A stretch of 64,000 nt of DNA from Polaribacter reichenbachii. Lineage in GTDB: Bacteria > Bacteroidota > Bacteroidia > Flavobacteriales > Flavobacteriaceae. The notes beneath the pieces are model-generated. The model was given only the letters and a program-made list of their open reading frames with translations, had not been told where the DNA came from and made no database searches. Position 1 is the first letter of the stretch, and every line of letters begins with the position of its first letter. Location: NCBI RefSeq assembly GCF_001975665.1, contig NZ_CP019419.1, positions 3,827,501-3,891,500 of the forward strand, given 5' to 3'. Shown one piece after another: positions 8,549 through 62,505 of this stretch. Made by a program: the position numbers and the translations under genes.

Positions 8549-8550
8549 GA

Positions 8551-32130: not shown

Positions 32131-32204
32131 GGCGAGGTAGCTCAGTTGGTTAGAGCGCAGGATTCATAACCCTGAGGTCACGGGTTCAAATCCCGTTTTC
32201 GCTA
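32131..32204 (+). tRNA. tRNA-Met (CAT)
   Basis: Full cloverleaf: acceptor strands 32131-32137 and 32197-32203 with GU pairs, a D arm containing AGCTCAGTTGGTTAGAGC, anticodon loop TTCATAA (anticodon CAT), and T arm 32180-32196. CCA is not encoded. It looks like an elongator tRNA-Met rather than the tRNA-Ile2 form by overall sequence. Its 3' half is the attachment site of the element, so the 3' part now present came in with the element. Confidence 0.96.
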
Positions 32205-32205
32205 C
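32162..32205. repeat. attL of the tRNA-Met element
   Basis: A 44-bp sequence from the anticodon loop to just past the tRNA 3' end, repeated without mismatch at 62639-62682. Confidence 0.92.
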
Positions 32206-32227: not shown

Positions 32228-32256
32228 ACGAATTGTGTCTCACAATTCGTTTTTTT
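32228..32256 (+). terminator. Terminator between tRNA-Met and the integrase gene
   Basis: A 10-bp perfect stem (32228-32237 with 32241-32250), loop TCT, and a T run. Inside the element, it would stop tRNA transcripts from entering int. Confidence 0.85.
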
Positions 32257-32283
32257 ATGCCCAATATTTTCTTACTTTTACGA

Positions 32284-32310
32284 AGAGTACACGATACAGT
32301 ACACGATTTA
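32284..32310. promoter_or_regulatory. Candidate integrase arm-type sites, left end
   Basis: A 27-bp block made of two direct copies of AGTACACGAT spaced 12 bp apart. It ends 3 bp before the integrase ATG and is repeated with one mismatch near attR (62567-62593). Confidence 0.7.
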
Positions 32311-32313
32311 CCT

Positions 32314-33618
32314 ATGAAACTGAATTATTCTGAGCCAAAAATCTTTACTGGCGGAGTTGATATAAACTCTTGGTCTAAACTATCTTCTAAAGAAAAAAAA
32401 GAAGCTTTATCTAAAAGTTGGTATATATATTATTCCTTTAGAAATCCAAAAACTGGAAAACTAAAAAGACAAACAAATATAAAAGCTGGTGTAAATCTTT
32501 ATAAAGACAAAAAAAGTAGATTTCACATCTTAAAACAGCTTAAAAAAAGTTTAGAATACATTCTTGCTAAAGGGTTTAATCCTTATCAAGACAATACTAA
32601 CTTAGCCAATTTTATTGAAGAACTTTTAATTGATGATATAGATAATAAAAAAGTAAAATCGAAAAATATCCCTACTAACTGCACATCTAACAAAGAAGTT
32701 TCAGAAAATAACATTATCAACTATTCAATTCAAGATGCTTTTACTTTTGCTTTAAGTATAAAATCAAAAGTCTTAAGCGAAACATCTTACAAAAATTTTA
32801 ACAGTAGAATACATCGTTTTAAAACGTGGTTAGTAAAACAAAATATTGAACTTAGTATTGATATATCTACAGTTGACAAAAAGCTTGTAATACAATATTT
32901 AAATGTTGTATTACAAAAGTCTAGTGCAAGAAATAGAAATAATACAAGAACTGATTTAAGTTCACTTTTTCAAACATTAGCTGACAACGAAATAATACAA
33001 GATAATTTCATTAAAAAAATTAATGTTTTAAAATCAAAACCTGAACGCAATAAAACTTATACTTCTACTGAACAAAAAGATATTTTCAAGTATCTAAAAG
33101 AAAATGACCCCATTTTGCATTTATTCGTACAGTTTGTTTCCTATAATTATTTAAGACCTGTTGAAGTTTGCAGGTTAAAAGTAGGTGACATTGATTTAAT
33201 TGATAGAAAAATTTCAGTTAAAGCTAAAAACAAAGCTGTAAAAATTAAAATCATACCCAATATTTTAATTGAACAACTCCCTGATTTAACTGAAATGAAT
33301 AAAAATGATTATTTATTTACACCAAACAAAATTGGTGGTGTATGGGACACTAAAGAGAATAATAAACGAGATTATTTTACAAAACAGTTTAAAAAAGTAA
33401 AAGACCACTTTAAACTAGGTAAAGAGTATGGCTTATATAGTTTCAGGCATACTTTTATCACTAAGTTATACAAGGAAATGGCTAAAACTGGAACACCTTT
33501 TGAGGTTAAGAGTAAATTAAAATTAATCACTGGCCATGCAACAATGGATGCTTTAGAATTATATCTTAGAGATATTGATGCTGTATTACCTGAAGATTAT
33601 TCAAAATTACTTAAATAA
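32314..33618 (+). CDS. int: Tyrosine recombinase/integrase
   Basis: About 434 aa. N-terminal arm-binding region, SAM-like core-binding domain (about 140-230, NIINYSIQDAFTFALSIKSKVLSETSYKNF), and catalytic domain (about 235-434) with Arg in YNYLRPVEVCRL, His-x-x-Arg region YSFRHTFITKLY, and late H-ATMDALELY with the nucleophile Tyr (EDYSKLL or ELYLRD). Integrates at the tRNA-Met 3' end. The start at 32314 is preferred over upstream frames because the arm-site repeat and a terminator lie in that upstream part. Its stop overlaps the next ATG by one base. Confidence 0.92.
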   Translation: MKLNYSEPKIFTGGVDINSWSKLSSKEKKEALSKSWYIYYSFRNPKTGKLKRQTNIKAGVNLYKDKKSRFHILKQLKKSLEYILAKGFNPYQDNTNLANFIEELLIDDIDNKKVKSKNIPTNCTSNKEVSENNIINYSIQDAFTFALSIKSKVLSETSYKNFNSRIHRFKTWLVKQNIELSIDISTVDKKLVIQYLNVVLQKSSARNRNNTRTDLSSLFQTLADNEIIQDNFIKKINVLKSKPERNKTYTSTEQKDIFKYLKENDPILHLFVQFVSYNYLRPVEVCRLKVGDIDLIDRKISVKAKNKAVKIKIIPNILIEQLPDLTEMNKNDYLFTPNKIGGVWDTKENNKRDYFTKQFKKVKDHFKLGKEYGLYSFRHTFITKLYKEMAKTGTPFEVKSKLKLITGHATMDALELYLRDIDAVLPEDYSKLLK

Positions 33619-36295: not shown

Positions 36296-37153
36296 ATGCA
36301 TTACAAATTTAGCTTAGACCCTACTCCAAGAAAATTCATTTGTCCTAATTGTAACAAAAAGACATTTGTAAAATTTATTGATAATGAATCAAAAAACTAC
36401 TTAAATGCCATTGATGGTAGATGTGATCGAGAAAGCAAATGTGGTTATTTTAAAAAACCATCAAATAATTATGCTATCACAAACAGCAATAGCAACGCTC
36501 TAAATGTATTACACCCAACATATCACAATAAAGATATTGTATTACAATTTTATGATACAATGCAACAAAGTAACTTTATAATCTATCTATTAAGTGTTTT
36601 TGATTTAAAAAGCGTGCAAAAAGCAATAATAAGGTATCATTTAGGTATTACAAATTATTGGAAAGGTGCAACAGTATTTTGGCAAATAGATGATAAAAAC
36701 AAAATAAGAGGTGGTAAAATAATGCAATACAATTGCAATACAGGTAATCGTGTAAAACAACCTTTTAATCACGTTAGTTGGATTCATAAACAATTAAAAT
36801 TAAATAACTTTGTATTACAACAATGTTTATTTGGCTTACACCTTATAAATAAAATTTCTAAAAGTGATACAATCTGCATTATAGAGTCAGAAAAATCAGC
36901 TATAATAATGAGCATTTTTATACCTGATTTTTTATGGTTAGCAACTGGAAGTAAATCGGGTTTTAAAGAAAGTATGCTACAACCATTAAAAGGTTATAAA
37001 GTTATCGCTTATCCAGATAAGTCAGAACACCAAAATTGGCAGGATAAATCGCAACTTTTAAATAAAAGAGGATTTAAAATTCAATGTAGTTCTTTATTAG
37101 AAAATATTGACATTGAAGATGGTTCTGATTTAATAGACTTATTAATTTCTTAA
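36296..37153 (+). CDS. Primase-like protein with zinc finger and Toprim-type end (DUF6371)
   Basis: 285 aa. N-terminal zinc-finger-like cluster (ICPNCNKKTFVKF ... GRCDRESKCGYF), then a middle domain and a C-terminal Toprim-like region (ICIIESEKSAIIMSIF with the conserved Glu; KVIAYPDKSEHQNWQDK with the conserved Asp). Fits the DUF6371 family of mobile-element primase-like proteins. Follows the RepA-like gene; together they suggest self-directed replication. Confidence 0.7.
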   Translation: MHYKFSLDPTPRKFICPNCNKKTFVKFIDNESKNYLNAIDGRCDRESKCGYFKKPSNNYAITNSNSNALNVLHPTYHNKDIVLQFYDTMQQSNFIIYLLSVFDLKSVQKAIIRYHLGITNYWKGATVFWQIDDKNKIRGGKIMQYNCNTGNRVKQPFNHVSWIHKQLKLNNFVLQQCLFGLHLINKISKSDTICIIESEKSAIIMSIFIPDFLWLATGSKSGFKESMLQPLKGYKVIAYPDKSEHQNWQDKSQLLNKRGFKIQCSSLLENIDIEDGSDLIDLLIS

Positions 37154-37521
37154 ATAATTAAATCATTCTCCCAAAGAGCCAAAACAACATCCATTTGAGA
37201 ATTTGATCTTTTATCTCCAAGATCTAAAGCTAACCATAATTCTTTTGGAGTAATATTTTTATGTTTATGCTGTTTTAATATTTCAACCGCTTTTAGGGCA
37301 TATTCTTTATTTTTCACAGATTTTGTATAATTACCTTTAGGTATACCTCTTACTAAACCAGTTTCACATAAACCTAAAAAAGTACCTTTGGGACAGCCTT
37401 TTTCTTGAGGACTTTTAGTTGTAAAAAATTCTTTTGCAGCTCTTTCATAACTTTCTAAAATGGAATAGTTTTCTTTATAATTTCGTTTTGCTTTTAACGT
37501 TGTTTGTGCGTATTTATTCAT
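37150..37521 (-). CDS. DUF6979-type small hypothetical protein
   Basis: 123 aa. SPQEKGCPKGTFLGLCETGLVRGIPKGNYTKSVKNKEYALKAVEIL resembles DUF6979 proteins, seen in Bacteroidota and Firmicutes without known function. Convergent with the primase-like gene (4-bp overlap). Confidence 0.6.
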   Translation of the reverse strand: MNKYAQTTLKAKRNYKENYSILESYERAAKEFFTTKSPQEKGCPKGTFLGLCETGLVRGIPKGNYTKSVKNKEYALKAVEILKQHKHKNITPKELWLALDLGDKRSNSQMDVVLALWENDLII

Positions 37522-37620: not shown

Positions 37621-39888
37621 TTACCTTTTATTTACTTTATCCCAAAATTCTTTTAATTTGTTTTCATTACTATCGCTATCGGCTTTAAGTAAGTCTTTTA
37701 AATCATAATTTAATCTATAAGCCTTGCTACCACTTTGTTTGATGTTTTTATTATCAAATTCACTTATGATTTCATTTTCAAGTAAAAACGGAATAACATC
37801 TTCAATAATCATTTTCGTTGATGAACCGTAAATGCTGTGTTCTTTCCAATTAGATTCATATTGTAATATTGTTCTGTGATATTTTGATAAGAATTTATTT
37901 ACTAAAGTTTTAAAAACAGAATGTTTCTTAATTACTAGTATTTCTTTTTCAGTTGTACTTCTTATGCCTCTTTTATGCAGAAGATCTTTTATTCTTATTG
38001 GAGAATAAGCAGTTTCAATTATTTCATCATTATTAATAATTTGAATTGAATCTATATTTGAATTTGAAATAATTACTTCTTCAAAAACATTTGAAGATGT
38101 TAAATCAAATTTAATTTCGTTAAAACTACAATTATCAAAAATTACATTTTTCAATTTTACGTTTTTTAAACTTATATTGATGAAATTTCCATTTTTAATT
38201 ACAACGTTATTTATGAATTTATTTTCGAAACCTAAACTAGAATAAGTTACTTTACCAGAAAAGGACAAAATATCGTCGGTTGTATTATTATCAATTAAAT
38301 AAGGTATTATTGTACCTACATTACTTTGTATATGAGTCGGCTTCCATTCTTTATCAATTATTTCTTGAAATAAATCTAGATACTTTTTTATATCATTTTT
38401 TTTCAAAGTATTTAACATATATCTCGGAACTGAATCAGGAAGTTGACCGAGAAATAAGAATTTTTTCAATTTCCTTAATGAAAGTTCTTTGATCAAATTT
38501 CCTAATGACTTGCCTAAAAAAAAGTTTTTAAACTCTTCATGATCAAATTTTCTTAATTGTTCGGACCCTATTGATATTGGTACTAAAAGCGCATGACTAT
38601 GTAGCATTCTAATAATTGTTGCTCTTAGACTTTCTTCTATATCCCAATCGTCTATTAGCATAGTTCCGTAAAGTTCTATTTCATCAATGGAAATATAATC
38701 TTTTTGAGATTCCCACATTTCTTTTGCAATGGTGGCAAGAAACGAAAGATGTTGATTAAAATTTAAATAAGGTTGACCAGTAACTTTATCTCGATCTTTC
38801 CATTTTTGCACTTCTCTTTTTATAAATGACTCTACTATTGTTGTTACTCCTTCTTTATCTTTATTCATTTCATCAAGAAGTTCTTTAAGCGAATTCTCCT
38901 CATCACTTGAGTCAATTAACTGAACAATTTTTGATAGTAAGAAAGGTCTTGCTAGAATCGGATGAGATTCATCCTTAAAGTTCTCTATTAAATGTGAATA
39001 TATTTTTTCTTGGTCATTACAAAAATATGAAATGTATTCAGTTGCATTTTCCTTTCGCCAATTGAGAACTTTTAACTCGTAAAAAAAACAATTGTGAGAA
39101 ATATATCCTTTCAAAAATTCAGTTCTTTTTAAGTAATCTTGTGTATTAAAAAAAGTTCTTCTAGATGCCGCAATTAATGTTCCTCTCCCATCCATTTCTT
39201 TTACTAAACTTGAAAGAGAACCCAAAGCTGATTCACCTCCAATCTCAGCAGCTAATTCATCAAAACCGTCAATTGCCAAAATTATATTTCTATTCTTTAT
39301 TAAAGTTAATATTGAAGAGTAATACAACCCTCTAATTCTTAACTCTCCTAAATCATACATTATTGCTTCAGCCAGTCTAACAAGATCTCTTCCTTGCAAA
39401 TCAACATGCCAAAAGAGATAATTACTTTCTCCTTTTAAAAACCTATTAGCTTGAATAATTTGGAACTCCTTTAACAATGCACTTTTACCATGACCAGCAT
39501 CAGCCGTAATAAAAGTAATTTTTGTTCCACTTAAAAGAGCTTCATCACATTCCTTTTGTAGTTGTTTAATGGCAATACCATTAGTTGTTGACCATGGCGT
39601 AATTAGATTAGATGGTCCTTCAATAAATGGTTCAATATTTTTTCTTTTTTGTATTAATCTTGTAGCAAAAATATCTAGCTGTGCAATTTCTTTGGAGATA
39701 AAGTCTTGGTATTTTATATTTCTTCCTTCAAAATTAATATACAGACTTTCATCGATATCATTTATTTTTAATTCATAATCTTTACCTAGTCTTGTAAACA
39801 AAACTTGACCATCTGGCTGAATAATTACGTCTTCTTCTGTATCTGCAAATGATTGTAAATCATTTTTAATTCTTTTAAGCCTTTCCAT
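37621..39888 (-). CDS. NACHT-domain STAND NTPase (candidate antiphage sensor/effector)
   Basis: 755 aa. N-terminal unknown domain (1-115, includes short beta-rich VIIQPDGQVLFTRLGKDYEL), NACHT NTPase (Walker A ADAGHGKSALL at 129-138; Walker B IILAIDGFDELA at 202-213; RHD-like ASRRTFF), helical C-terminal half, then pentapeptide-like stretches at about 549-609 (FENKFINNVVIKNGNFINISLKN-type pattern) and a final basic helical segment. Bacterial NACHT proteins act in phage defence by sensing and oligomerising; function here is inferred from family and neighbours. It overlaps the NYN gene by 14 bp and is last in a three-gene operon. Confidence 0.82.
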   Translation of the reverse strand: MERLKRIKNDLQSFADTEEDVIIQPDGQVLFTRLGKDYELKINDIDESLYINFEGRNIKYQDFISKEIAQLDIFATRLIQKRKNIEPFIEGPSNLITPWSTTNGIAIKQLQKECDEALLSGTKITFITADAGHGKSALLKEFQIIQANRFLKGESNYLFWHVDLQGRDLVRLAEAIMYDLGELRIRGLYYSSILTLIKNRNIILAIDGFDELAAEIGGESALGSLSSLVKEMDGRGTLIAASRRTFFNTQDYLKRTEFLKGYISHNCFFYELKVLNWRKENATEYISYFCNDQEKIYSHLIENFKDESHPILARPFLLSKIVQLIDSSDEENSLKELLDEMNKDKEGVTTIVESFIKREVQKWKDRDKVTGQPYLNFNQHLSFLATIAKEMWESQKDYISIDEIELYGTMLIDDWDIEESLRATIIRMLHSHALLVPISIGSEQLRKFDHEEFKNFFLGKSLGNLIKELSLRKLKKFLFLGQLPDSVPRYMLNTLKKNDIKKYLDLFQEIIDKEWKPTHIQSNVGTIIPYLIDNNTTDDILSFSGKVTYSSLGFENKFINNVVIKNGNFINISLKNVKLKNVIFDNCSFNEIKFDLTSSNVFEEVIISNSNIDSIQIINNDEIIETAYSPIRIKDLLHKRGIRSTTEKEILVIKKHSVFKTLVNKFLSKYHRTILQYESNWKEHSIYGSSTKMIIEDVIPFLLENEIISEFDNKNIKQSGSKAYRLNYDLKDLLKADSDSNENKLKEFWDKVNKR

Positions 39889-40642
39889 AACAAATTGTGT
39901 TTACTGAAAAATTAGATAATATATTTTTATAATTCGATTCTAGTCTTGAATTTTTTATTAAAACTTCAAACAAACAGTTTTTATTAAACCTTATTTTGTT
40001 TTGAGAAGCCACAGCCAGTGCTGGGAAAAAATCGACATCATCTGAAACAATAATTATTTTACTTACATCGTCTTCCATAGAATAAGACATTAAGTCACAT
40101 GCAATCATAGTATCAACCATTTTCTGTTCTGTTTTGACAAACAATTCATTGTTTAAAGAATTACAGCCATCTACTGCACACTGATGAGTTTTCTTTTTTG
40201 CTATTCTTTTTAATATATGTGGAGGGCAATTGGTTTTATTATTTGCACATGTATCATTTAACTTGTCGTTATTAATTTTTATGTATGACATTCCATTTTT
40301 CTCCTTCAAAGTATTTCTCCATTGATAACTTGGAACATTAAACAATGTATCAATAACCTCTATTTTTCCTTTAATAATTATATTTTGATTATTAATTATA
40401 GGAAAGAGATTAAAAGATGAAAGAATGCTAAACAATATTGAGGCTTTATTTGTTAATACATCTTCTTGATACCAACCACCATATAACCTAATTTCTAAAT
40501 AAGTATTAATTGGTGATGAATTGATATCAATACATGTATTAATTATTTCAGAAAATTGATATTGAATTTCTTCATCAGTGTATTGATTTAAATCTTTTCT
40601 ATCAAACCAATTATCAAAGTCAACAAGAAAAATATATTTCAT
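39875..40642 (-). CDS. NYN-domain (PIN-like) ribonuclease-type protein with Cys/His insert
   Basis: 255 aa. NYN/LabA-type signatures: FLVDFDNW with Asp8 and Asp10, QKMVDT (K174, D177) and SDDVDFFPA (D201, D202, D204), giving a full acidic site. Between the two halves lies an insertion with C132, C139, H142, H153, C155 and C160, which could bind zinc and is not part of the core NYN fold. NYN proteins are RNases. It overlaps both neighbours (ATGA with the upstream ORF; 14 bp with the NACHT gene), so the three are translated as a unit. Confidence 0.8.
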   Translation of the reverse strand: MKYIFLVDFDNWFDRKDLNQYTDEEIQYQFSEIINTCIDINSSPINTYLEIRLYGGWYQEDVLTNKASILFSILSSFNLFPIINNQNIIIKGKIEVIDTLFNVPSYQWRNTLKEKNGMSYIKINNDKLNDTCANNKTNCPPHILKRIAKKKTHQCAVDGCNSLNNELFVKTEQKMVDTMIACDLMSYSMEDDVSKIIIVSDDVDFFPALAVASQNKIRFNKNCLFEVLIKNSRLESNYKNILSNFSVNTICYGKA

Positions 40643-41055
40643 ATAGTATTATTTATTTCAACAACCAAACCCAAACTTTCTTTTGCTCTTTGATTTAGAT
40701 ACTGATTTTCATCAGTATGCGTTACACGCACCTGCCCATTCATTAACATAGGCAATAAACAATCTCGTAATTCAGATAGTTTTTGGCTTTGTTTAAAATT
40801 GACAACCATTTTATTATAATAAACTCTTCCTAAATCTTCATTTTCTAATGAAAGAGAAATTTTATTAAATATTTTTTCTGATTCTTTTTGAGAAAGATTT
40901 TTATTGTTTTTTTTTAATTGATAATAAAAAATATAAGTAAAAATATTGGTTTCTAAATCCCAATTATTTTCTTTTAAAGAAAGGTATGTATAACCTAATT
41001 TGATAAGATGTAAAATGGAGGGAATTTTTACTCGAGAATCTTCATTGAATTTCAT
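40639..41055 (-). CDS. HsdR-N / HsdS-C fusion ORF (type I restriction locus deletion scar)
   Basis: 138 aa. Residues 1-85 match the N-terminal start of type I restriction subunit HsdR (FNEDSRVKIPSILHLIKLGYTYLSL; SLENEDLGRVYYNKM). From about 90 the frame matches the C-terminal end of specificity subunit HsdS (LSELRDCLLPMLMNGQVRV) and its usual tail. No single family has both. An in-frame deletion from early hsdR to the end of hsdS in an hsdR-hsdM-hsdS operon would yield exactly this. The stop overlaps the NYN start by 4 bp. It may now be only a translational feeder for the NYN gene. Confidence 0.72.
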   Translation of the reverse strand: MKFNEDSRVKIPSILHLIKLGYTYLSLKENNWDLETNIFTYIFYYQLKKNNKNLSQKESEKIFNKISLSLENEDLGRVYYNKMVVNFKQSQKLSELRDCLLPMLMNGQVRVTHTDENQYLNQRAKESLGLVVEINNTI

Positions 41056-41125
41056 AGCAAATGAATAAACTACTAATGTAAGAAAACCAAATGATATTTT
41101 ACTTTAGAAACCTAAATTATGAATG

Positions 41126-41713
41126 TTAAAAAAGAGTAGGTTGTTTAAAACCCAATTGATTTGTAGTAAAATCATATTGTGGATTAACTTCCTTATTATT
41201 TAACCAAGCTTTAAAATCGTCTTCGGTTTTTAAACTAAAAGGCATTCTTAATTTAGAGTTGTGTATTTCTCTCATAATACCTTTAGCTTCTGTGGTTACT
41301 ATTGTGTAGGTGTTATTTATAAACAAGCCTGCGAATGCAAAAAGTTGATTGTTAAAGCCTATTTCAAACTTAATTTTTTCTTTCCCTTGATGTTGCCATT
41401 CGTAAAAACCATCAACTAAAACAATACACCTGTTTTCTGTATAATGTTTAAAAGCAGGTTTTTCTGATATGGTTTCTATTCGTGCATTTAAAGTATAATT
41501 TCTTTTCCAGTCAGAATTTGCCCATTCTGGTATTAGTCCCCAATTATACATTTTAATTTCTGTAAGATTAGAGTTGGTAATGATTGGTGTTTTAGGAAAA
41601 TTAAATCCATTAATTTGTGAACTAGGATTAAATGAAGCTTCAGAATTAAATTTAGCCTTAAATTTTTTCTCTATTTCCTTAATTGATTTTGTTTGTTTAG
41701 TATGAAAACACAT
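41126..41713 (-). CDS. SRAP-domain protein (YedK/HMCES-like), complete copy
   Basis: 195 aa SOS-response-associated peptidase fold that forms a thiazolidine crosslink to abasic sites in single-stranded DNA. The nucleophile is Cys2 (MCFHTKQ), followed by YNWGLIPEWANSD, YTLNARIET, VDGFYEW (active Glu) and REIHNSKLRMP (active His). Part of the dinB-dnaE-SRAP cassette of the element, but now separated from dnaE by the nested RHS segment. The 3' part is complete here; the second copy is truncated. Confidence 0.92.
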   Translation of the reverse strand: MCFHTKQTKSIKEIEKKFKAKFNSEASFNPSSQINGFNFPKTPIITNSNLTEIKMYNWGLIPEWANSDWKRNYTLNARIETISEKPAFKHYTENRCIVLVDGFYEWQHQGKEKIKFEIGFNNQLFAFAGLFINNTYTIVTTEAKGIMREIHNSKLRMPFSLKTEDDFKAWLNNKEVNPQYDFTTNQLGFKQPTLF

Positions 41714-41886
41714 AAAATAACTTTTTGATAGTAAACTTAATAAAAATTAAAAGAAAGCACTTTAATAATCAATTTCTGGGATCAATTGCAATACTCATTT
41801 TTTTAGATTTAATAACGTTCATACTACAAAAGCCAAATCGATTTGTAATTTTACCATAACAAGCATAAATTCCCATTCCGTTTATT
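41300..41886. repeat. 587-bp direct repeat, left copy
   Basis: Matches 57035-57621 at about 97% by eye (roughly fourteen single differences, no gaps seen). Covers part of SRAP and about 100 bp of the 3' end of the error-prone dnaE gene, which is complete only in the right copy. Confidence 0.9.
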
Positions 41887-46900: not shown

Positions 46901-46906
46901 GTGGTT

Positions 46907-49900
46907 ATGAGAAGAAAAATAAATATAGGTGCTCTATTGTTATTTTTTGTTGGATATCAATTTATCTATTCACAACAAGAAGATAATTTTTTAAAAAAGA
47001 AAGTAGGATTTAAAAAAATTGAACTAAATGATAATGAATCTGGTACTTTAATCTTAGAAGGAGCAAATAAGAAAAATGTAAATCATAAAAATGAACAGAC
47101 TATCAGTAGTAAATCTAATGGTTCTGGTATTGGTGAAACAATGGGAGAATTAAGTGTTTCGCTTACAGGTGGAGCAAATTATGATATCCCTATTACTGTG
47201 CCCTCTGGAATAAATGGCGTACAACCAAATATTTCTATTAGTTATGATAGCCAATCTGGTATGGGTTTAGCAGGTTATGGTTGGAATATAAAAGGAGTAT
47301 CAGCTATAACAAGAATCCCATCATCAAAATACCACGATAACTCTATAGGGGGTGTTAATTTGGATCATAATGAAAATAGGTTTGCTTTAGATGGTAATAG
47401 ACTTATTTTAAGAAGTGGAACCTATGGAGGGGATGGTGCTGAATATGAAACTGAGGTTTTTTCCAATTTGAAAATAACCTCACATAGAACATTTTCATAT
47501 GGACATTATGATGGTCCAGAATACTTTAAAGTTTTGTATCCTGATGGTTCAATTGCCTATTATGGATATAGTACAGATTCAAAAACTGAAATTAACTATT
47601 TGATTTCATATTGGCAGAATAACCAAGGAATTAGAATAAACTATGAATATTTGAATCACAGAAATTATTCAAGCCCTGGAGGCAATACCAATATTATAAA
47701 GAAAATATCGTATGGTAGTAGATTAAACGATATACCTAAAAGTGTGATAGTATTTGAATATGAAGACATATCTAGGAATGATTTATCTGGTATTGGTGGT
47801 AATATGTACTATAATCCAGATATTCTTTCAAAAATTATTGTAAACAATAATTCTATTAAGTATAGAGAATATAATTTAACGTATAATACTAGTAGTCTAA
47901 ACTATCAAAGATTAGAGAGTATCCAAGAAAAAAGTGGAGATAATACAAAATCTCATAGCCCTATATTTTTTGATTATTCTGATAGTAATTCATCAGTTAC
48001 TTATAATGGTTTAACAGCAAATTTAAACTTACTAAATATAGAACAAAGAAATAGTGAAACAAGGTCTTTAGATCTTAATGGTAATGGTAAAATGGATTTT
48101 ATTGTTTTTCCAAGGGATAATAAAGATAAATTTTGGGTATTTCAAGATATAAAAGGGGGTAATAATTCAGCTTATGAAATTCCTACAAACGTTTTTAAAG
48201 ATGTCTTTCCTATTACTTCTTTAAGTCATAATAATAAAGTCTTATCAGGTCAAAACTTAGTTTTTATTGAGGAAACATCAAATCAAGTAAATTTTAAGAT
48301 TATTTCAAAAGCTCCTGCATCTGCTGGTGGTTATCCAGTTAGATTAGATTATGAGAAAACTTGGAATGCACCTAGATATATACATACCATTAATAATTGT
48401 GGAAGTGATGGAGGGGTGAGAAATATTACTACATCTGTAAATAGTGGACAAACATCAAATGTAAATGCTAATGTAATTAATGCAGCTAATTTAATCCATT
48501 CAAATGGAGTAGCAAATTATACAGCTGATCAATTAGTCCTAAAACCAGGATTTAAAGCTAAAAATGGTTCAACTTTTAACGGAACAGCTACAAATAATGT
48601 AACCAAACTTATTCCAAATACTTATGTAAGTGGAGATTTTAACGGAGATGGATTAACAGATATAATTGCAATTTCAGAAAATTATTCTAGATCTGTTTGT
48701 AATGAAGTATGGATAAACCCTAGAATTGGGAGGGATTGCAGATGCACAGGAAGTCCAGTTAATGATGGAAATTCAAAAGTTTTTTTTGTTGATTTAAATA
48801 GAAATAGCAATTCAAATCCAATTCAAATCGGCACATTATCAAAAAGTATAACTAAAGATACTGATAAAATTTTAGTCGCCGATTTTAATGGAGATGGTAA
48901 ATCAAATATCCTTCATATTGTAGAAGGAAAAGTTTTCGTTTATACTTTAAATAATAGCAATGTCTTAGAGTTGCTTTGGACCACAACAGATTATAAGTTT
49001 AATTTAAATTTACCCTATCTTTTAGGTGATTATAATGGAGATGGTTTAACAGATTTTTTAATACCTGATGTAAATACCGGTAATAATTTTGATATATTCA
49101 ACATCCGTTTTTCAACAGGTGAAAGCTTTGTTAATTCAAAATCCAGACAACCTTTTTTTTATACAGAAACTAATTGGAATGGTAGCAACGGAGTCTTGAG
49201 TGGTTATAACTTAATACCCATAGATTACAATAGAGATGGAAAGACGGATATTGTAGAATATAATACCAAAACTTATAATGGAAGCTCTAATGGAACTCAA
49301 GAGATTAAGGTATATTATAATAAGGGAGCAGCAGACTCGTCGAACAAAGTTACTTTTGAATATGAAGGTCAAACTAAGAAAACAGGCAATTTAAAACACT
49401 TTCCAATACCTATTTTCTTAAATTCTAATGAACCTAATAAAAATATTGAATTTGCAGCTATAAGTGATAGATGGATTACTTCATTTAGTTTCACTCAAAA
49501 TCATAGAGAAGATGTTTTATTAAGATCTATTGAAAATAATGGAATTACTAACAGTATATCCTATAATAATCTAGATGATACAGAATACACGGACGACTTT
49601 TTAAGAGTATATCAACCAGATTATAACGCTAATTATCCTAATGTAGATATAACATCTTCTCCAGGAACAAAAGTGGTAACGTCTTTAGCCAGAACTGGTT
49701 TAGGTTATACAGGTTTAAAACAGGTTTTTTCTTATTACGGAGCTATCCATAATATGGAAGGTTTAGGTTTTTTAGGATTTAAAGGTATCGCTCAAAGCAA
49801 TTGGCATACAGATGGTGGAGATAGGATATTTAATGTTTCTAAATTTGATACTTCTTTAAGAGGGGCAATAATTGAAGAGTACTCTCAACCTTATAACTTT

Positions 49901-52900
49901 TCGTTTACTAGTCCATCCAATATAATATCTAAAGTTACAAATACATATTCTCATTCTATTTCATCAGAAAAAGTTTTCAAGTTAACTTTAGATTATAGTA
50001 GTGAGCAAAATACCTTGGAAGGTACTACTACTACTAAGACCTATGAATATAATATTTACAATAATCCAAAAACAGTTATAACTAATTATATTGGTGGTGA
50101 TTCAAGTCTTGTAGAATATGAGTATGATGATACTCCAACTTCAATTACTAACTTTTTTATAGGTAGGCCAGAAAAAGAAAAAAGAACAACCACAATTGAT
50201 GGCAATTCTTTTACTACTGAAACTCATTATTTACAATATTCTGGAAATTTACCAAAACAAATAAAAACTAAAGGAAATGGTACTCAATTTGATGTTGTGA
50301 ATATCACATACGATTCTTACGGTAATATATTAAATAAAGAAAAAATTCCTTTTGATAGTAGTTCTAGAAGTGTAAGTTTCAAATATGATAGCTCTCATAG
50401 ATACTTAGAAGAATCTACCGATTTAGAGGGTTTTACCACAAAATATGACTACAATATTACAGATGGTTCCGGTACACTAAAAAAGGAAACTAATCATTTT
50501 AATCAAAAGACAGAATATTTATACGATTCTTGGAACAGATTAACTCAAATTACGGATTATTTGGGTAACAATTTAACTACCGATTTTTCAGAATCTAATT
50601 ATTCATATACTGTTACAGAGTTAGGTGACAGTGGTATGGGTAAAATTACCATTTACGATCCTTTAAAAAGAGTTTCTAAAGTTCATGAGAAAAACGCTTT
50701 AGGAAACTGGGTAAGCAAAAGTTATGAATATGATGCATTTGATAGATTAATAAGAGAAAGTGAACCATATGCAGGTGCTGCTACTCAATGGAATACTACT
50801 GCTTATGATTTTTATGGAAGAGTGGTAACACATAATAATTATGCTGGGAAGTATATGAATATCCAATATAATGGATTATCAACTACCTTAGATGATGGTA
50901 CAAAAATTATTACAACTGTTAAAAATGGAATGGGACATATTAAAAGTGTGACAGACAATGGTGGAAAAATAAATTATGATTATTATGGAAATGGAGCAGT
51001 TAAATCATCAAATTATAATGGTAATATTGTAACAATTGAACAGGACGGTTGGGGAAGAAAAAGCAAAATGACTGATCCATCATTTGGAGATTTTACCTAC
51101 ACCTATAATGGTTTTGGAGAACTATTAACTGAAACCTCACCTAAAGGAGTAACAACTTATACTTATAGTAATATAGGTAAGCTAGAAACCGAAATTATTC
51201 AAGGTGAAAATACAGATATAAATATTACATATTCTTATTATGATTCTACACATAAACAATTAAAAAATATAACAGGGTTCAATGCTCGTACTAATGAAAA
51301 TTATACGTATGAGTACTTATATGATAATTATAATAGACCTTGGATAACAAGAGAAACTAACGCTCATGCTTTCTTTGAACATCAAGTATCAAGAGATGGT
51401 TTTGGAAGAATAGAGAATGAAACATATATTACTACTAATTATTCAGATAATTTAATTAGTACAGTTAAAACTAAAAACGTATACAATTCTAATTCTGGAG
51501 GATTAGTCGAAATATTAGATTTCAATACCAATGCATCTTTATGGAAATTGAATAGCTTAAATGCTAAAAATAAAGCGACACAATTACAAATAGGTAATGG
51601 TATTCTAAAAAATAAAAGTTATGATACTTATGGTTTCTTAACCAATATATCACACAAAAAAGGTTCAGGCAGTTCTATAATTACTGCTTTGGATGTAGAT
51701 TACAGTTTTGATCATCAAAGAGGAAATTTACTAACTAGAAATAACAATGTATTTTCATGGAGTGAAGCGTTTAATTATGATAGTTTAGACCGATTATTAG
51801 GAGTTTCAGGCTCAGTTAGCTATTCTCATACCTATGATAATCAAGGGCGTATTAATAATAATTCAGATGTAGGAGACTACACTTATGCCTCTTCTTCGAG
51901 TTATAAATTAAAAGAAATTCAACTCAATACAAAAGGAGATTTACACTATCAAAACAACCCACTGCAGAAAATAGAATACAATGCATTTAAAAAGCCTGTT
52001 TCTATTCACGCTAATGGTAATGGTAGAGTTGATTTTGAATACAGTATTTTAAAAAGCAGAAGCCATGCATATTATGGTGGTGAACAAGAAAATAAGTTAG
52101 ATAGACGCTATAAAAAACACTACTCTGCCATTAGCCCGGTAGAAATAGAAGTTGATAAACAAGGGGGTACAAAAATTATCACTTTTATTGGTGGTGACGA
52201 ATACTCTGCACCTATTATGTACGTAAAGAAAACTGGTGCAAATTCTATAGATGGCTATCATTATTTACATAGAGATTATTTAGGGACTATTCTAGCAATA
52301 ACAGATAGTAATGCTATTATTGTAGAACAACGCCAATTTGGTGCTTGGGGTACTGTAGATAAATTTGTAACAGGCAGTAGTGAGGTAGATTTTACAAACG
52401 ATACTACTTTGTTGAACAGAGGATTTACTGGACATGAACATTTCTTTGAGGTGGGGTTAATACATATGAATGGTAGAATGTATGAAGCCAAGTTAGGACG
52501 TTTCTTATCTCCAGACAATTACATACAAAACCCACAAAATACGCAAAACTATAATCGCTATAGTTATGTTTTAAATAATCCTTTAAAATACACAGACCCT
52601 AGTGGTGAATTTATTGCAGAAATAGGAGCAACACTCTTTTTGGTAGTTAAAGCATTGTTTGTAACTTCAGCTCTTGTTGGTTCTTATTCACTAATTAGTA
52701 ATTTAAGTGGGCAATCAGGTGGTGGTGGTCAAAACACTCAGCCTAATATTAAAAATAACAGCTTACTAAATAATGCTACAGGTTCTCCACCAACAGGAGG
52801 TTTCAAACAGGCATTTGATAATGATAGACCTTGGTATGTAAATGCCTTTAAAGCATATATGGACTTCAAACAAGGAAGGGACAATGGTAGGTTAAGAGCT

Positions 52901-53563
52901 GCAAAAAGTAGTTGGAATTTTGTTAAAGGTCTTGCCACAACAACTCAAGCGTGGAAAGATCTGGGGCAAGGTTTTATGGATATGGCTGCAATGGCTAGCC
53001 CTACAGATGCAAGAGGTATGATGCTTAGAACCCAAACTGCTACAGCTGTAATTGACTTTGTAGGTAGAATACCAACTATGGGTTTCTACGAAATTGGTGA
53101 TCATACAGGTTATGGAGAATTTAAATTGGGAGAGTCTATATTATTAAGTAAAGGTACTGGTCTCGTTGCCAATGGTATTAAAGGTCTTGCCAATTTTGCA
53201 AAAGTTCCTGCTAATTTGATTAAGGTGCCTCAAATTCCAATTAAAATTAAATCATTAAATTTGACAACTTCATCTGGAGCGCTAAAACATGCAAGGACAT
53301 ATACGATATATAACCGCTTTGGGGAAGTTTTTAAATTTGGTGTTACAGATCCTTCATTAGTTAGGTATGGACAGTCGTTAGGGATGGCAGGTCCTGGTGC
53401 ATATGGTAAATTTTCACAAGTTATGTTTAAAGGAAAAGCTCATACGATGGAAAGGTATTTAAGAAGTATATATTATAATTCTACTGGACAGTATACCTTA
53501 CCTGGTATGAAATATCCTTACCCTATTAATTTTAATACTGGATTACCAATTAAACCTTTTTAA
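46907..53563 (+). CDS. SpvB/RHS polymorphic toxin
   Basis: 2218 aa, one of the largest genes here. Signal peptide; SpvB-like N-terminal domain (about 75-320); Ca2+-loop VCBS/FG-GAP repeats (DFNGDGLTDII and similar, about 390-770) with an inserted 3-coathanger-like stack (LVLKPGFKAKNGSTFNGTA); Tc/TcdB middle region; RHS/YD repeats (about 1050-1760); RHS core ending YNRYSYVLNNPLKYTDPSGEF at about 1898. The variable C-terminal tip is about 320 aa with a hydrophobic helix first and a GIY-YIG-like last 95 residues (TYTIYNRFGEVFKFGVTD ... HTMERYLRSIYYNSTG). The ATG at 46907 is preferred to GTG at 46901. Expected role: contact-dependent toxin neutralised by the next gene. Confidence 0.9.
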   Translation: MRRKINIGALLLFFVGYQFIYSQQEDNFLKKKVGFKKIELNDNESGTLILEGANKKNVNHKNEQTISSKSNGSGIGETMGELSVSLTGGANYDIPITVPSGINGVQPNISISYDSQSGMGLAGYGWNIKGVSAITRIPSSKYHDNSIGGVNLDHNENRFALDGNRLILRSGTYGGDGAEYETEVFSNLKITSHRTFSYGHYDGPEYFKVLYPDGSIAYYGYSTDSKTEINYLISYWQNNQGIRINYEYLNHRNYSSPGGNTNIIKKISYGSRLNDIPKSVIVFEYEDISRNDLSGIGGNMYYNPDILSKIIVNNNSIKYREYNLTYNTSSLNYQRLESIQEKSGDNTKSHSPIFFDYSDSNSSVTYNGLTANLNLLNIEQRNSETRSLDLNGNGKMDFIVFPRDNKDKFWVFQDIKGGNNSAYEIPTNVFKDVFPITSLSHNNKVLSGQNLVFIEETSNQVNFKIISKAPASAGGYPVRLDYEKTWNAPRYIHTINNCGSDGGVRNITTSVNSGQTSNVNANVINAANLIHSNGVANYTADQLVLKPGFKAKNGSTFNGTATNNVTKLIPNTYVSGDFNGDGLTDIIAISENYSRSVCNEVWINPRIGRDCRCTGSPVNDGNSKVFFVDLNRNSNSNPIQIGTLSKSITKDTDKILVADFNGDGKSNILHIVEGKVFVYTLNNSNVLELLWTTTDYKFNLNLPYLLGDYNGDGLTDFLIPDVNTGNNFDIFNIRFSTGESFVNSKSRQPFFYTETNWNGSNGVLSGYNLIPIDYNRDGKTDIVEYNTKTYNGSSNGTQEIKVYYNKGAADSSNKVTFEYEGQTKKTGNLKHFPIPIFLNSNEPNKNIEFAAISDRWITSFSFTQNHREDVLLRSIENNGITNSISYNNLDDTEYTDDFLRVYQPDYNANYPNVDITSSPGTKVVTSLARTGLGYTGLKQVFSYYGAIHNMEGLGFLGFKGIAQSNWHTDGGDRIFNVSKFDTSLRGAIIEEYSQPYNFSFTSPSNIISKVTNTYSHSISSEKVFKLTLDYSSEQNTLEGTTTTKTYEYNIYNNPKTVITNYIGGDSSLVEYEYDDTPTSITNFFIGRPEKEKRTTTIDGNSFTTETHYLQYSGNLPKQIKTKGNGTQFDVVNITYDSYGNILNKEKIPFDSSSRSVSFKYDSSHRYLEESTDLEGFTTKYDYNITDGSGTLKKETNHFNQKTEYLYDSWNRLTQITDYLGNNLTTDFSESNYSYTVTELGDSGMGKITIYDPLKRVSKVHEKNALGNWVSKSYEYDAFDRLIRESEPYAGAATQWNTTAYDFYGRVVTHNNYAGKYMNIQYNGLSTTLDDGTKIITTVKNGMGHIKSVTDNGGKINYDYYGNGAVKSSNYNGNIVTIEQDGWGRKSKMTDPSFGDFTYTYNGFGELLTETSPKGVTTYTYSNIGKLETEIIQGENTDINITYSYYDSTHKQLKNITGFNARTNENYTYEYLYDNYNRPWITRETNAHAFFEHQVSRDGFGRIENETYITTNYSDNLISTVKTKNVYNSNSGGLVEILDFNTNASLWKLNSLNAKNKATQLQIGNGILKNKSYDTYGFLTNISHKKGSGSSIITALDVDYSFDHQRGNLLTRNNNVFSWSEAFNYDSLDRLLGVSGSVSYSHTYDNQGRINNNSDVGDYTYASSSSYKLKEIQLNTKGDLHYQNNPLQKIEYNAFKKPVSIHANGNGRVDFEYSILKSRSHAYYGGEQENKLDRRYKKHYSAISPVEIEVDKQGGTKIITFIGGDEYSAPIMYVKKTGANSIDGYHYLHRDYLGTILAITDSNAIIVEQRQFGAWGTVDKFVTGSSEVDFTNDTTLLNRGFTGHEHFFEVGLIHMNGRMYEAKLGRFLSPDNYIQNPQNTQNYNRYSYVLNNPLKYTDPSGEFIAEIGATLFLVVKALFVTSALVGSYSLISNLSGQSGGGGQNTQPNIKNNSLLNNATGSPPTGGFKQAFDNDRPWYVNAFKAYMDFKQGRDNGRLRAAKSSWNFVKGLATTTQAWKDLGQGFMDMAAMASPTDARGMMLRTQTATAVIDFVGRIPTMGFYEIGDHTGYGEFKLGESILLSKGTGLVANGIKGLANFAKVPANLIKVPQIPIKIKSLNLTTSSGALKHARTYTIYNRFGEVFKFGVTDPSLVRYGQSLGMAGPGAYGKFSQVMFKGKAHTMERYLRSIYYNSTGQYTLPGMKYPYPINFNTGLPIKPF

Positions 53564-56765: not shown

Positions 56766-57033
56766 AGTTGCCTGAAAAAATGGATATTAAAAAACTAAAA
56801 TTAGAGCTTAATAAGATTGAGTACAAAACTTTAATTATTCAATATACGAGGGGGTAAAAGTAGATGCCTTAATGGTAGAGGATTTAGATGGTTTATGGAA
56901 AGTATTTTATTGCGAGAGAGGTAATAAAGAATTGATTTGAATATTTAAATCTGAATCAGAAGCCTTTATTGGGTTGCTAAATCATTTTAGAAATGATCTA
57001 AACTTAACGGGTAAACAAAGCTTTAATGAGTAA
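56766..57033 (+). pseudogene. Decayed immunity-like gene (fragment B)
   Basis: Reads MKLPEKMDIKKLKLELNKIE, a stop and frameshift after YTRG, then VDALMVEDLDGLWKVFYCER, a TGA, and IFKSESEAFIGLLNHF to a stop at about 57033. Its C-terminal end matches the relic at 54356-54438. It abuts the right 587-bp repeat, so the insertion ends here. Confidence 0.6.
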
Positions 57034-57448
57034 ATATTGTGTAGGTGTTATTTATAAACAAACCTGCGAATGCAAAAAGTTGATTATTAAAACCTATTTC
57101 AAACTTAATTTTTTCTTTCCCTTGATGTTGCCATTCGTAAAAACCATCAACTAAAACAATACACTTGTTTTCTGTATAATGTTTAAATGCAGGTTTTTCT
57201 GATATGGTTTCTATTCGCGCATTTAAAGTATAATTTCTTTTCCAGTCAGAATTTGCCCATTCTGGTATAAGCCCCCAATTATACATTTTAATTTCTGTAG
57301 GATTAGAGTTGGTAATGATTGGTGTTTTAGGAAAATTAAAACCATTAATTTGAGAGCTAGGATTAAATGAAGCTTCAGAATTAAATTTAGCCTTAAATTT
57401 TTTCTCTATTTCCTTAATTGATTTTGTTTGTTTAGTATGAAAACACAT
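57023..57448 (-). pseudogene. Truncated SRAP gene copy
   Basis: Same N-terminal 130 or so residues as the SRAP gene at 41126, but the frame ends in unrelated NNTYTIFTH after the repeat boundary. It has lost the region with the active-site His, so it should be non-functional as a SRAP enzyme. Confidence 0.88.
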
Positions 57449-57621
57449 AAAATAACTTTTTGATAGTAAACTTAATAAACATTAAAAGAAAGCACTTTAA
57501 TAATCAATTTCTGGGATCAATTGCAATACTCATTTTTTTAGATTTAATAACGTTCATACTACAAAAGCCAAATCGATTTGTAATTTTACCATAACAAGCA
57601 TAAACCCCCATTCCGTTTATT
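57035..57621. repeat. 587-bp direct repeat, right copy
   Basis: Partner of 41300-41886, with offset 15,735 bp. It contains the SRAP 5' part and the true 3' end of dnaE. Confidence 0.9.
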
Positions 57622-60461: not shown

Positions 60462-60464
60462 AAA

Positions 60465-61679
60465 TCATTGTTTTCTATGTGCTAAAACTAAAGGAGGATC
60501 TCCATTAAAAGGATCATTAAATCTGCCAATAGTTTTTGCTCCCATTGCTGATGCTCTCATTATACTAGCTTCACCATATTTATTACGAACATTATCCATA
60601 GCATTATAAAGGTTTAGCATTTGTTGTGTATCATCAAAAAGGTTAATCTGATAATTACCATTTACAATGTCAGAAATTTTAACACCTACCAACCTTATTA
60701 ATAATCTTCTTTGATAGAGTTTGTTAAATAGCTCTAAAACAGTTGGTATAATAATATGATCTGCACTTGTATAAGGTATTTTAACTTGTTTGCTATAAGT
60801 ATTAAAATCTGAATATCTAATCTTTACACTAAAAACAGAAGCTAGTTTGTCCCCTTTTCTTAATTGATAGGCTAAGTTTTCTGCCATTGCAAAAATGGTT
60901 TCTTTTAGCTTTTTTACATCAATTGTATCTTTATTGTATGTTCTTTCTGTTGATAAAGATTTACGCTCGTGAAAAGTTATTATTGGTGGATTGTCTATTC
61001 CATTAGCACGTTTCCAAATAGTTTTACCATTTTTACCTAGAACACTTATCATCATTTCTAAAGGCATTTCTTGTATCACTTTTACTTTATCAACTCCTAA
61101 GTTTCTGAGAGTTTGATATGTTTTTTCTCCTACTGATGGTATTTTACGAATTGAAAGAGGTGCTAAAAACGATTTCTCAAAACCATTATCTATTTGTAAT
61201 TGATTATTAGGTTTAGCTTCACCTGTTGCAACTTTAGAAACAATTTTGTTTTGTGACAATCCAAAAGAAATAGGTAAACCACTTTCTTTAATAATTCTTT
61301 GACGTAATTCTGATGCAAATTTATAGCTTCCAAAAAATGCATCCATTCCTGATAAATCTGCATAAAATTCATCAATACTTGCTTTTTCGAAAACAGGTAC
61401 ACTCTCTTTAATAATATCTGTAACAATATTTGAATACTTAGAATAGGTGCCAGTATTTCCTCTTATAATTGTGGCTTCTGGACATAGTTTTCTAGCAATT
61501 TTCATAGACATACCAGAATGAACACCAAATCTTCTAGTTTCATAACTACAAGCTGCTACAACTCCTCTATCTCCAGTTCCGCCAACTAACAAAGGTTTTT
61601 TCTGTAACCTGCTATCAATTAAACGTTCGCAGGAAACAAAGAAAGTATCTAAATCTAAATGTAAAATATGTTTTTTCAC
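60465..61679 (-). CDS. dinB: Y-family DNA polymerase (DinB/Pol IV-type)
   Basis: 404 aa. Start is GTG at 61679. Palm residues in HLDLDTFFVSCERL (Asp7/Asp9) and KASIDEFYADLSG; fingers AACSYETRRFGVHSGM; little-finger domain LSTERTYNKDT... It lacks ImuB-like C-terminal changes. Shares the cassette with dnaE and SRAP, and the divergent S24 repressor gene lies 50 bp away, suggesting SOS control. Confidence 0.9.
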   Translation of the reverse strand: MKKHILHLDLDTFFVSCERLIDSRLQKKPLLVGGTGDRGVVAACSYETRRFGVHSGMSMKIARKLCPEATIIRGNTGTYSKYSNIVTDIIKESVPVFEKASIDEFYADLSGMDAFFGSYKFASELRQRIIKESGLPISFGLSQNKIVSKVATGEAKPNNQLQIDNGFEKSFLAPLSIRKIPSVGEKTYQTLRNLGVDKVKVIQEMPLEMMISVLGKNGKTIWKRANGIDNPPIITFHERKSLSTERTYNKDTIDVKKLKETIFAMAENLAYQLRKGDKLASVFSVKIRYSDFNTYSKQVKIPYTSADHIIIPTVLELFNKLYQRRLLIRLVGVKISDIVNGNYQINLFDDTQQMLNLYNAMDNVRNKYGEASIMRASAMGAKTIGRFNDPFNGDPPLVLAHRKQ

Positions 61680-61710
61680 TTGTCAAAAATATCTCAAAAT
61701 TGTAGATTTG
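61680..61710 (+). promoter_or_regulatory. Promoter/operator region between dinB and the S24 repressor
   Basis: TTG at 61680-61682, 20 bp, then TAGATTTG at 61703-61710 for the repressor gene. CTCAAAAT occurs at 61693-61700 and 61715-61722 in direct orientation and could be the repressor site shared by both genes. The whole intergenic is only 52 bp. Confidence 0.55.
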
Positions 61711-61731
61711 TTGGCTCAAAATATTAGTTTT

Positions 61732-62505
61732 ATGTCATTTATTCAACAAAACATTAAGTTCATCAGAAAACAAAAGGGATTAACTCAGCTAGAGTTTTCT
61801 AGTGATTTAAATTGGTCTAAATCTCAAATAGGTGCTTATGAAGAAGGTAGAGCACAACCTTCTATAGACAAGTTAATTCAGTTGTCTGATTTAACGAATA
61901 TTCCTATAGATATTTTAGTAAAAAATGATTTAAGAAAATCTGGAACTACAAGTTTTATAGAGGTTGGTAATAAGAGAATTCTTTTCCCCATTATGGTTGA
62001 TGATGAAAATGAAAATTTAATTGAAGTAGTACCAACAAAAGCATCAGCAGGTTATTTATTAGGTTATGATGATCCAGAGTACATTGAGCAGTTAGAGAAA
62101 ATCAAATTGCCATTTTTGCCTACTGGTAAGCACAGAGCTTTCCCAATAAAAGGAGATTCTATGTTACCAATGAAAGATGGTTCTTATGTGGTTGCTGAAT
62201 TTGTTGAAGATATTAAGCAAGCTAAAAGTGGTTATACTTATGTTATTGTTACTAAAGATGATGGAATGACATACAAAAGGATTTACAATCAAGTTGAAGA
62301 AAATCAATCCTTTTTATTGAAACCAGATAATTCAAGTTATCAACCTTATGAAGTTCCAGTTTCTGAAATAATAGAATTATGGAAATTTACTTGTAGTATA
62401 AATACACAAGAATATGATGAAAATGAATTAAAATTGAGCAGTATTATTGAAATGTTTAATGGTTTAGGTGTTGAATTAGAAGCTTTAAAAAAATCTTTAC
62501 TTTAA
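61732..62505 (+). CDS. S24/LexA-type autocleaving repressor with HTH_XRE
   Basis: 257 aa. N-terminal XRE helix-turn-helix (KFIRKQKGLTQLEFSSDLNWSKSQIGAYEEGRAQPSIDKLIQL, about 9-50), linker, and C-terminal S24 peptidase domain. The autocleavage bond candidate is A106-G107 (KASAGYLLGY), active Ser143 in IKGDSMLPMKDGS, and Lys182 in MTYKRIYNQ; spacing agrees with LexA and CI. Divergent from dinB-dnaE-SRAP, so RecA-triggered self-cleavage should derepress the cassette. The start at 61732 is chosen over upstream TTG codons. Confidence 0.92.
   Translation: MSFIQQNIKFIRKQKGLTQLEFSSDLNWSKSQIGAYEEGRAQPSIDKLIQLSDLTNIPIDILVKNDLRKSGTTSFIEVGNKRILFPIMVDDENENLIEVVPTKASAGYLLGYDDPEYIEQLEKIKLPFLPTGKHRAFPIKGDSMLPMKDGSYVVAEFVEDIKQAKSGYTYVIVTKDDGMTYKRIYNQVEENQSFLLKPDNSSYQPYEVPVSEIIELWKFTCSINTQEYDENELKLSSIIEMFNGLGVELEALKKSLL

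Follow-up and report, generated by a model that had tools for sequence, protein, structure and literature searches.

Why a gene pair encoding a predicted RNase and an NLR-like ATPase stands at the end of what seems to be left of a type I restriction operon is the question raised by a stretch of 64,000 nucleotides from Polaribacter reichenbachii (NZ_CP019419.1, positions 3,827,501 to 3,891,500), called the window in the following. An earlier note, made from the letters of the window alone, had seen here three overlapping genes on the minus strand, namely a scar of HsdR fused to HsdS, a NYN-type RNase gene and a NACHT gene, and had suggested that all three form one defence unit. The open reading frames (ORFs) indeed follow each other with successive overlaps of 14 bp and 4 bp. 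Pfam, conserved residues and, for NACHT, a fold search agree with the domains assigned in the note, and the scar was recovered in comparisons with relatives. Of the supposed unit the pairing of NYN with NACHT stands, but the fusion gene drops out as a member, because queries with HsdR and HsdS found no HsdR-HsdS fusion beside other pairs. The three genes are:

37621-39888, minus strand: NACHT / NLR-like STAND NTPase, 755 amino acids (Pfam, fold search, conserved residues)
39875-40642, minus strand: NYN-domain predicted RNase, 255 amino acids (Pfam, conserved residues, model)
40639-41055, minus strand: in-frame fusion of the hsdR N-terminus with the hsdS C-terminus, 138 amino acids, its stop overlapping the NYN start by 4 bp

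The best reading of these genes is that NYN and NACHT form a portable two-gene module in which an NLR-like sensor switch would respond to a putative trigger and control a predicted RNase in trans. An anti-phage action of the module is the best-supported reading and in our opinion likely, although the phage phenotype itself is inferred. Most likely, the pair represents an anti-virus defence system that is unnamed in the databases searched. Comparison shows the pairing, the co-inheritance, the conservation of active-site-type and ATPase residues, the resemblance to NLRs, the viral and defence context, and the joining of the fusion gene from parts that are separate in relatives.

The scan with the NYN alignment yielded 47 loci, 43 from genomes and four from viral contigs (our locus numbers begin with L, genome numbers with G). 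Some redundancy is included: L048 and L064 come from one genome, as do L058 and L059, and L029 and L030 look alike. With profiles at the ORF level, both genes were recovered in 44 of the 47 loci, and NACHT directly follows NYN on the same strand with a gap of -50 to +16 bp in 42, among them L025, L043, L060 and L065, where a gene is broken or cut. In L033 the two genes stand head-to-head, and in L040 they are separated by 1,576 bp and NYN (8150-10341) is interrupted by a gene labelled by eye as transposase-like. In the remaining three loci, the contig ends just past NYN (L021), the NYN frame beside NACHT was missed by the ORF caller (L027), or NYN is degenerate (L028). When the search started from NACHT, matches were obtained in nine of 395 genomes of the phylum, comprising the own genome, six clear relatives and the two weak ones G447 and G595, and NYN was found directly upstream in all five clear relatives with readable upstream DNA, while L012 is cut by the contig end. 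The NACHT-first scan of viral contigs gave five loci, i.e. the four contigs of the NYN scan, all with the pair, and L101, which is cut at the contig start. The searches overlap, four of the five phylum relatives and all four viral contigs being already in the NYN scan. Tree distances of NYN and NACHT are correlated (r = 0.88, n = 37 pairs), and none of 2000 permutations gave an equally high value (maximum 0.40); 34 of the 37 tree rows are spread over 13 phylum labels. On these comparative grounds, NYN and NACHT are a conserved two-gene unit. Furthermore, a diverged pair on the viral contig L098 (1-2774), whose NYN is without the four-cysteine cluster described below, suggests a wider NYN-NACHT family.

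Among 299 genomes of the same family, NYN was found in the own genome and as one weak partial match. In a DNA search of 97 genomes of the same genus, the NYN-NACHT stretch gave only short, low-scoring pieces, whereas hsd, DUF6979 and SRAP sequences did match. The 123 genomes of the family of the Parabacteroides locus L055, searched for the subclade of the window, contained the known member and one weak partial match. No NYN or NACHT relatives were found on PLSDB plasmids, the Pseudomonas NYN had no match in GenBank phages, the DNA of the Lonsdalea NYN had none in E. coli genomes, and a single-sequence scan of viral contigs with the window NYN gave 12 stretches, none of which is a relative.

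The NYN protein was assigned by Pfam PF01936 with an E value of 4.9e-6, which is over the cut-off. It was aligned with the NYNs of 39 of the 47 loci (L027, L028, L029, L040, L059, L060, L064 and L065 omitted); the rows left out of the residue counts, eight for NYN and seven for NACHT, were duplicates, broken, cut or not found. Invariant in all 40 rows are D8, N11, R52, Y54, G55, W57, C132, C139, C155, Q173, K174, D177, D183, D202, D204 and P207, while D10 is present in 36. Hence D8, N11, D177, D183, D202 and D204, the active-site-type residues, are all conserved as in the acidic site of the NYN family. The window protein also carries an inserted cluster of four cysteines (C132, C139, C155, C160), the fourth of which occurs in 40 of 40 rows if a shift of three columns is allowed. 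The structural model is confident, with a predicted local distance difference test (pLDDT) value of 93.4. The protein is therefore a candidate RNase with a putative RNA target.

For the partner protein, Pfam PF05729 (NACHT) gave an E value of 2.4e-5 and 24.7 bits, just below the cut-off of 26.7. The NACHT/NLR type is supported despite this score, because the key residues are conserved in 41 aligned rows and because of the fold search. The window protein consists of an N-terminal alpha/beta domain (about 1-81), the NACHT part with Walker A (G132-x-G134-K135-S136) and Walker B (D207/E211), the histidine H450, which we take to be the winged-helix histidine of NLR-type proteins, a pentapeptide-type beta-helix (about 540-627, with residues 554-619 matching pentapeptide-repeat proteins), and a helical C-terminal region. 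In the alignment with 40 of the 47 loci (L021, L025, L029, L043, L059, L060 and L064 omitted), G132, G134, K135, D207, E211, R243 and H450 are present in all 41 rows, i.e. both Walker motifs of a STAND ATPase are conserved. Residues 1-81 match no Pfam family, and no fused N-terminal effector like that of bacterial NACHT (bNACHT) proteins was recognised there. The model reached a pLDDT of 85.3 and a predicted template modelling score (pTM) of 0.69, and its best Foldseek matches in the PDB are NLRC4 (top, E 1.3e-14), NOD2 and NLRP3.

Several points weigh against a sensor-controlled RNase. The fold matches of NACHT have low TM-scores of about 0.2-0.5 (top match 0.37/0.32; about 0.5 over the NACHT domains of NLRP3), obtained with a model whose pTM is only that given above. 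The NYN model found nothing in the PDB by Foldseek at E <= 1e-3, and neither did the NYN profile at E <= 0.1. The profile was built from NACHT-linked members, and [ER]QK[LM]VD[ST][MH][IML] was the only pattern of the genome scan; the invariance of Q173, K174 and D177 is partly imposed, because this pattern includes them. NYN is broken while NACHT is intact in L028 (about 4675-5077, stops), L040 (the transposase-like insertion) and L065 (9129-9841, split frame), and the reverse is found in L025, where NACHT is split and NYN intact. The weak NACHT relative in G447 has a different gene upstream and no NYN alongside. Finally, the effector is not fused to the NACHT N-terminus, unlike the layout described for bNACHT proteins in the accessible part of PMC12169576.

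In the mechanism that we propose, the NACHT protein would be an NLR-like STAND ATPase that stays inactive as long as its C-terminus, with beta-helix and helical region, senses no infection cue. Upon such a cue, it might open or oligomerise and thereby switch on the separately encoded NYN RNase, which would cut RNA and halt phage growth, probably along with the host cell. If this is true, an NLR-like switch that acts on an RNase encoded apart from it is in use in bacteria carrying 13 phylum labels, a layout comparable to animal inflammasomes, in which sensing and execution are likewise divided between two proteins. The pair would then be a small and testable case for studying the activation of an effector in trans by a bacterial NLR.

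Known systems resemble the pair only in part. The anticodon nucleases PrrC and RloC are single proteins that combine an ABC-type ATPase with a HEPN-type nuclease and are linked to type I restriction-modification (R-M) systems. They share with the pair an RNase and an NTPase beside hsd genes, but here these are two genes, the NTPase is of the NACHT type and the nuclease of the NYN type, and a link to hsd genes was mostly not found; type I linkage was seen as the scar in the window, as hsd genes upstream in L017/L057 and, in L051, as an isolated HsdS-like gene at a distance of 9.4 kb upstream of the pair. In bNACHT proteins an N-terminal effector, in some cases a nuclease, precedes NACHT and a C-terminal sensor, as described in the available part of PMC12169576. 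The window NACHT likewise is a STAND ATPase resembling NLRs, but has a separate NYN gene, a small N-terminal part without recognisable effector, and the pentapeptide-type beta-helix. Among the validated anti-phage systems of DefensePredictor, DS-3 and DS-5 are PIN RNases and DS-8 is a metallophosphatase-NACHT (PMC13092281, as far as its accessible text goes); they share a PIN-type RNase or NACHT with our pair, but there PIN and NACHT sit in different systems, and the term NYN does not occur in the main text of that paper as available. The CRISPR-associated NYN is a Mn-dependent RNase with three clustered aspartates as predicted active site, of which D13A abolishes cleavage, and a role in CRISPR RNA (crRNA) maturation is favoured in the part of PMC11346440 at hand. 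It has the NYN fold and conserved aspartates in common with the window protein, which differs in its cysteine cluster and NACHT partner; no CRISPR genes were noticed at the locus, where no search aimed at CRISPR was made.

Searches of PADLOC (2023) and NCBIfam, the latter with the window protein only in the case of NYN, gave no named system matching the pair, only weak or partial overlaps. The PADLOC candidate HEC-09 matches weakly over the NYN core, covering only residues 158-213 of the window NYN instead of its full length; four of 40 NYNs match its model at E <= 1e-3 (best E 2e-7). Against PADLOC, the NACHT of the window gave nothing at E <= 1, and its NCBIfam matches are all far below the cut-offs. 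The 41 NACHT members together gave one weak methyltransferase match in PADLOC, and in NCBIfam HalA (25 members; the pentapeptide part in the window protein), SV2 (two), Qnr (one) and DS8 (one, weak). A NYN-NACHT pair is likewise not described in the accessible parts of PMC3710099, PMC8195603, PMC10853773, PMC10910872, PMC13092281, PMC12169576, PMC13236601 and PMC11346440.

The genes around the pair point to phages and to defence. Phage-type genes stand near it in several loci. L048, a prophage of Pseudomonas sp. GM41, has fragments of an integrase and of a phage-type DNA methyltransferase, the latter 4.6 kb upstream; genes for portal and tail fibre occur in L062, an integrase gene in L063, and genes for tail sheath and tape measure in L065. 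When 18 neighbour proteins from 13 loci, picked by eye, were compared with PADLOC, matches were obtained in nine loci: type I genes and an AriA/OLD-like protein (L017), type IIG enzymes (L039, L044), BREX PglZ and BrxL (L054), a type II system (L055), DruE (L015), Dsr1 (L022), NsnA on the opposite strand (L049) and a weak DrmD/DpdE-like helicase (L051). The four proteins picked in L033, L037, L050 and L053 had no match at 1e-10. A second search, in which all neighbour ORFs were queried with the PADLOC-matched and flavobacterial Hsd proteins, added a IIG-like gene farther upstream in L022 and the HsdS-like gene of L051. Collectively, six distinct loci besides the window have R-M or BREX genes upstream of the pair and on its strand (type I in L017/L057, IIG in L022, L039 and L044, BREX in L054, type II in L055), and these genes adjoin the pair directly in L039, L044, L054 and L055. 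For the majority of loci the R-M queries, which were no unbiased PADLOC scan of the complete upstream gene set, gave no match close to the pair, the six distinct loci being among 46 rows with more than 2.5 kb upstream of NACHT, of which at least five are duplicates. All R-M and BREX matches are upstream and on the same strand, while the downstream matches are DruE-like pieces in L022 and L039 and, on the opposite strand, an OLD-type gene in L041; this upstream bias may reflect the queries, which were mostly taken from upstream genes. PADLOC, applied to 67 downstream proteins, matched models of a type IV restriction endonuclease, Gabija, PDC-S02 and the DRT type with one member each among the 25 of 141 families listed, R-M being conceivable among the others, hence defence genes occur on both sides of the pair.

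The fusion gene that precedes the pair in the window is, judged from the alignments, the scar of a type I restriction operon, in which the start of hsdR (about 80-85 codons) was joined in frame to the end of hsdS. Over residues 78-117 it resembles the specificity subunits of type I systems, with 6.8e-12 as the best E value. In genomes of the same family, residues 1-84 resemble HsdR N-termini with up to 75% identity, and residues from about 60-80 to 133 resemble HsdS C-termini at places separate from the HsdR matches, both on one strand and about 5.4-7.2 kb apart where paired on one contig. The DNA search gave the same separation in the same-genus genomes G813, G841, G833 and G866, with 78-82% identity on the hsdR side and 84-91% on the hsdS side, the two sides meeting at about 40798-40814. 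ORF maps place hsdR, hsdM and hsdS in this order in the same-genus loci L110, L111, L113 and L114 and in the same-family loci L086, L088 and L089, with an additional gene in L089 and one of about 325 amino acids between hsdR and hsdM in L110 and L111. Both parts of the fusion are thus colinear with an intact operon, as in an R-M remnant. We considered the fusion as a working part and rejected it: a full match over residues 1-138 was found in the own genome only, among the 299 of the family, and the HsdR and HsdS queries found no such neighbour beside other pairs. Separately, L087 (G231) carries at 8318-8515 a short hsdR 5' remnant of 65 amino acids, 83% identical over 42 residues, which precedes a different hsdM/hsdS.

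The alignment with L113 extends upstream of hsdR to 41124, and the old hsdR upstream region might possibly serve as transcription source for fusion, NYN and NACHT. A sigma-70 scan gave 31 sites versus 30.2 in shuffles, and the terminator scan 0 versus 0.8. The further features of the scar and its surroundings are:

40798-40814, minus strand: deletion junction, hsdS 3' sequence below and hsdR 5' sequence above (same-genus DNA alignment)
41056-41124, minus strand: retained hsdR upstream region (aligned with the intact same-genus operon L113)
37150-37521, minus strand: DUF6979 gene (Pfam and same-genus comparison)
32162-32205, plus strand: attL-like copy, tRNA-Met 3' end (44-bp exact repeat)
62639-62682, plus strand: attR-like copy of the same 44-bp repeat, at the other end of a 30.5-kb island
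32233-33618, plus strand: tyrosine recombinase (integrase) adjoining tRNA-Met (Pfam)

The locus is placed on a 30.5-kb island, because it is flanked by these two exact direct copies of the 3' end of tRNA-Met (32131-32205). In the window, NYN-NACHT fills the place between the hsdS remnant and DUF6979. The DUF6979 gene is present in six of the 97 same-genus genomes, own counted, its match being split into two pieces in G841 and G833, and lies downstream of hsdM/hsdS in five of six other same-genus loci (L110, L111, L112, L113 and L115). Of these, L112 has no recognised hsdR, and the type I set of L115 is of another kind and truncated at the edge; L116 (G883) has DUF6979 without a recognised hsd gene, while L114 has a McrB-like gene after hsdS and no DUF6979 was found there. 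The slot between hsdS and DUF6979 is empty in L111 and holds a 94- and a 143-amino-acid gene in L112, four genes in L110, five in L113, and in L115 an 87-amino-acid gene together with a protein of 517 amino acids that matches a PDB chain with E 4.3e-58 and is a relative of Drt2, an antiviral reverse transcriptase; two other slot proteins had no match in the PDB. In the same-family locus L088, relatives of the island's DUF6371, small and AAA genes adjoin hsdR-hsdM-hsdS. The own genome also contains a broken second DUF6979 copy (G000:C1:2443370-2443649). In our scenario, the pair first stood as a cassette between hsdS and DUF6979, where an hsdR-hsdM-hsdS operon of the tRNA-Met island has its 3' end; a deletion of about 5.5-6.8 kb would later have taken the restriction genes and spared the beginning of hsdR with its upstream region, which would now read into the pair. 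In the alternative order, the pair would have been inserted when the deletion had already occurred. A bolder and rather doubtful extension is that type I R-M operons of the genus hold an hsdS-DUF6979 slot trading whole anti-phage modules (DRT2-like reverse transcriptase, small gene sets, NYN-NACHT), and that NYN-NACHT represents a novel NLR immune system of split type with an RNase activated in trans, repeatedly coupled to DNA-modification defences as a second line on their failure. If true, the slot offers a route to more defence cassettes within restriction operons.

Could the pair instead guard restriction, staying silent while R-M or BREX works and firing once a phage anti-restriction protein blocks it? 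PrrC beside its type I system provides a precedent, and the six loci with upstream same-strand R-M or BREX, the four adjacent ones among them, as well as the 4-bp overlap of the hsdS-tail stop with the NYN start, are in line with it. In the subclade of the window (window, L054, L055, L058), upstream DNA could be read for three members, and in each of them the pair comes after a DNA-modification system (a type I scar, BREX or type II), whereas by the same queries the next outgroups L052, L053 and L061 have none. However, most loci have no R-M match by the queries used, likewise the viral ones save for the methyltransferase fragment in L048, the pair persists in the window after the loss of restriction, and it is less likely that a single molecular guard serves four R-M types that are unrelated to each other; we regard the guard as quite improbable. 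The link to restriction drawn in the earlier note has some support, from the five DUF6979 loci and the six pair loci, a dependence of the pair on restriction is not supported, some copies being on viral contigs, and a former RNase guard stays conceivable for the window subclade. The refuting condition of that note was that the two genes occur separately and without a link to restriction; they do occur together, though for the most part without such a link.

Another explanation would see a toxin-antitoxin-like stability module, with NYN as toxin and NACHT as restrainer, that benefits the mobile element rather than phage defence. Two overlapping genes on mobile elements, one with an RNase-type fold, would suit it, as would NYN broken beside intact NACHT in three loci; an NLR-like ATPase of about 750 residues with conserved switch residues and a sensor-like C-terminus nevertheless exceeds the needs of an antitoxin, defence genes flank the pair, and L025 is broken the opposite way, which together make this explanation very unlikely. 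A cellular RNA-processing role with an accidental island location has the least in its favour: some NYN proteins process RNA, for example the CRISPR-associated NYN proposed for crRNA maturation (PMC11346440, accessible part), but the patchy presence of both genes, the mobile and defence context and the resemblance to NLRs had already disfavoured it, and its probability is minimal. Anti-phage action of the NYN-NACHT module is preferred.

Some other genes of the island deserve mention. Two SRAP (HMCES-like) genes lie at 41126-41713 and 57023-57448, the second being shorter, and the window sequence 41300-41800 is repeated at about 57035-57535 with 97% identity. By the attR copy, 57504-62505 holds an SOS-mutagenesis-like set consisting of a DnaE-type polymerase III alpha, a Y-family (IMS) polymerase and an S24 peptidase/helix-turn-helix protein. 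Finally, 46901-53563 encodes a protein of 2220 amino acids with FG-GAP, RHS and SpvB-type domains, preceded by a Por secretion tail protein.

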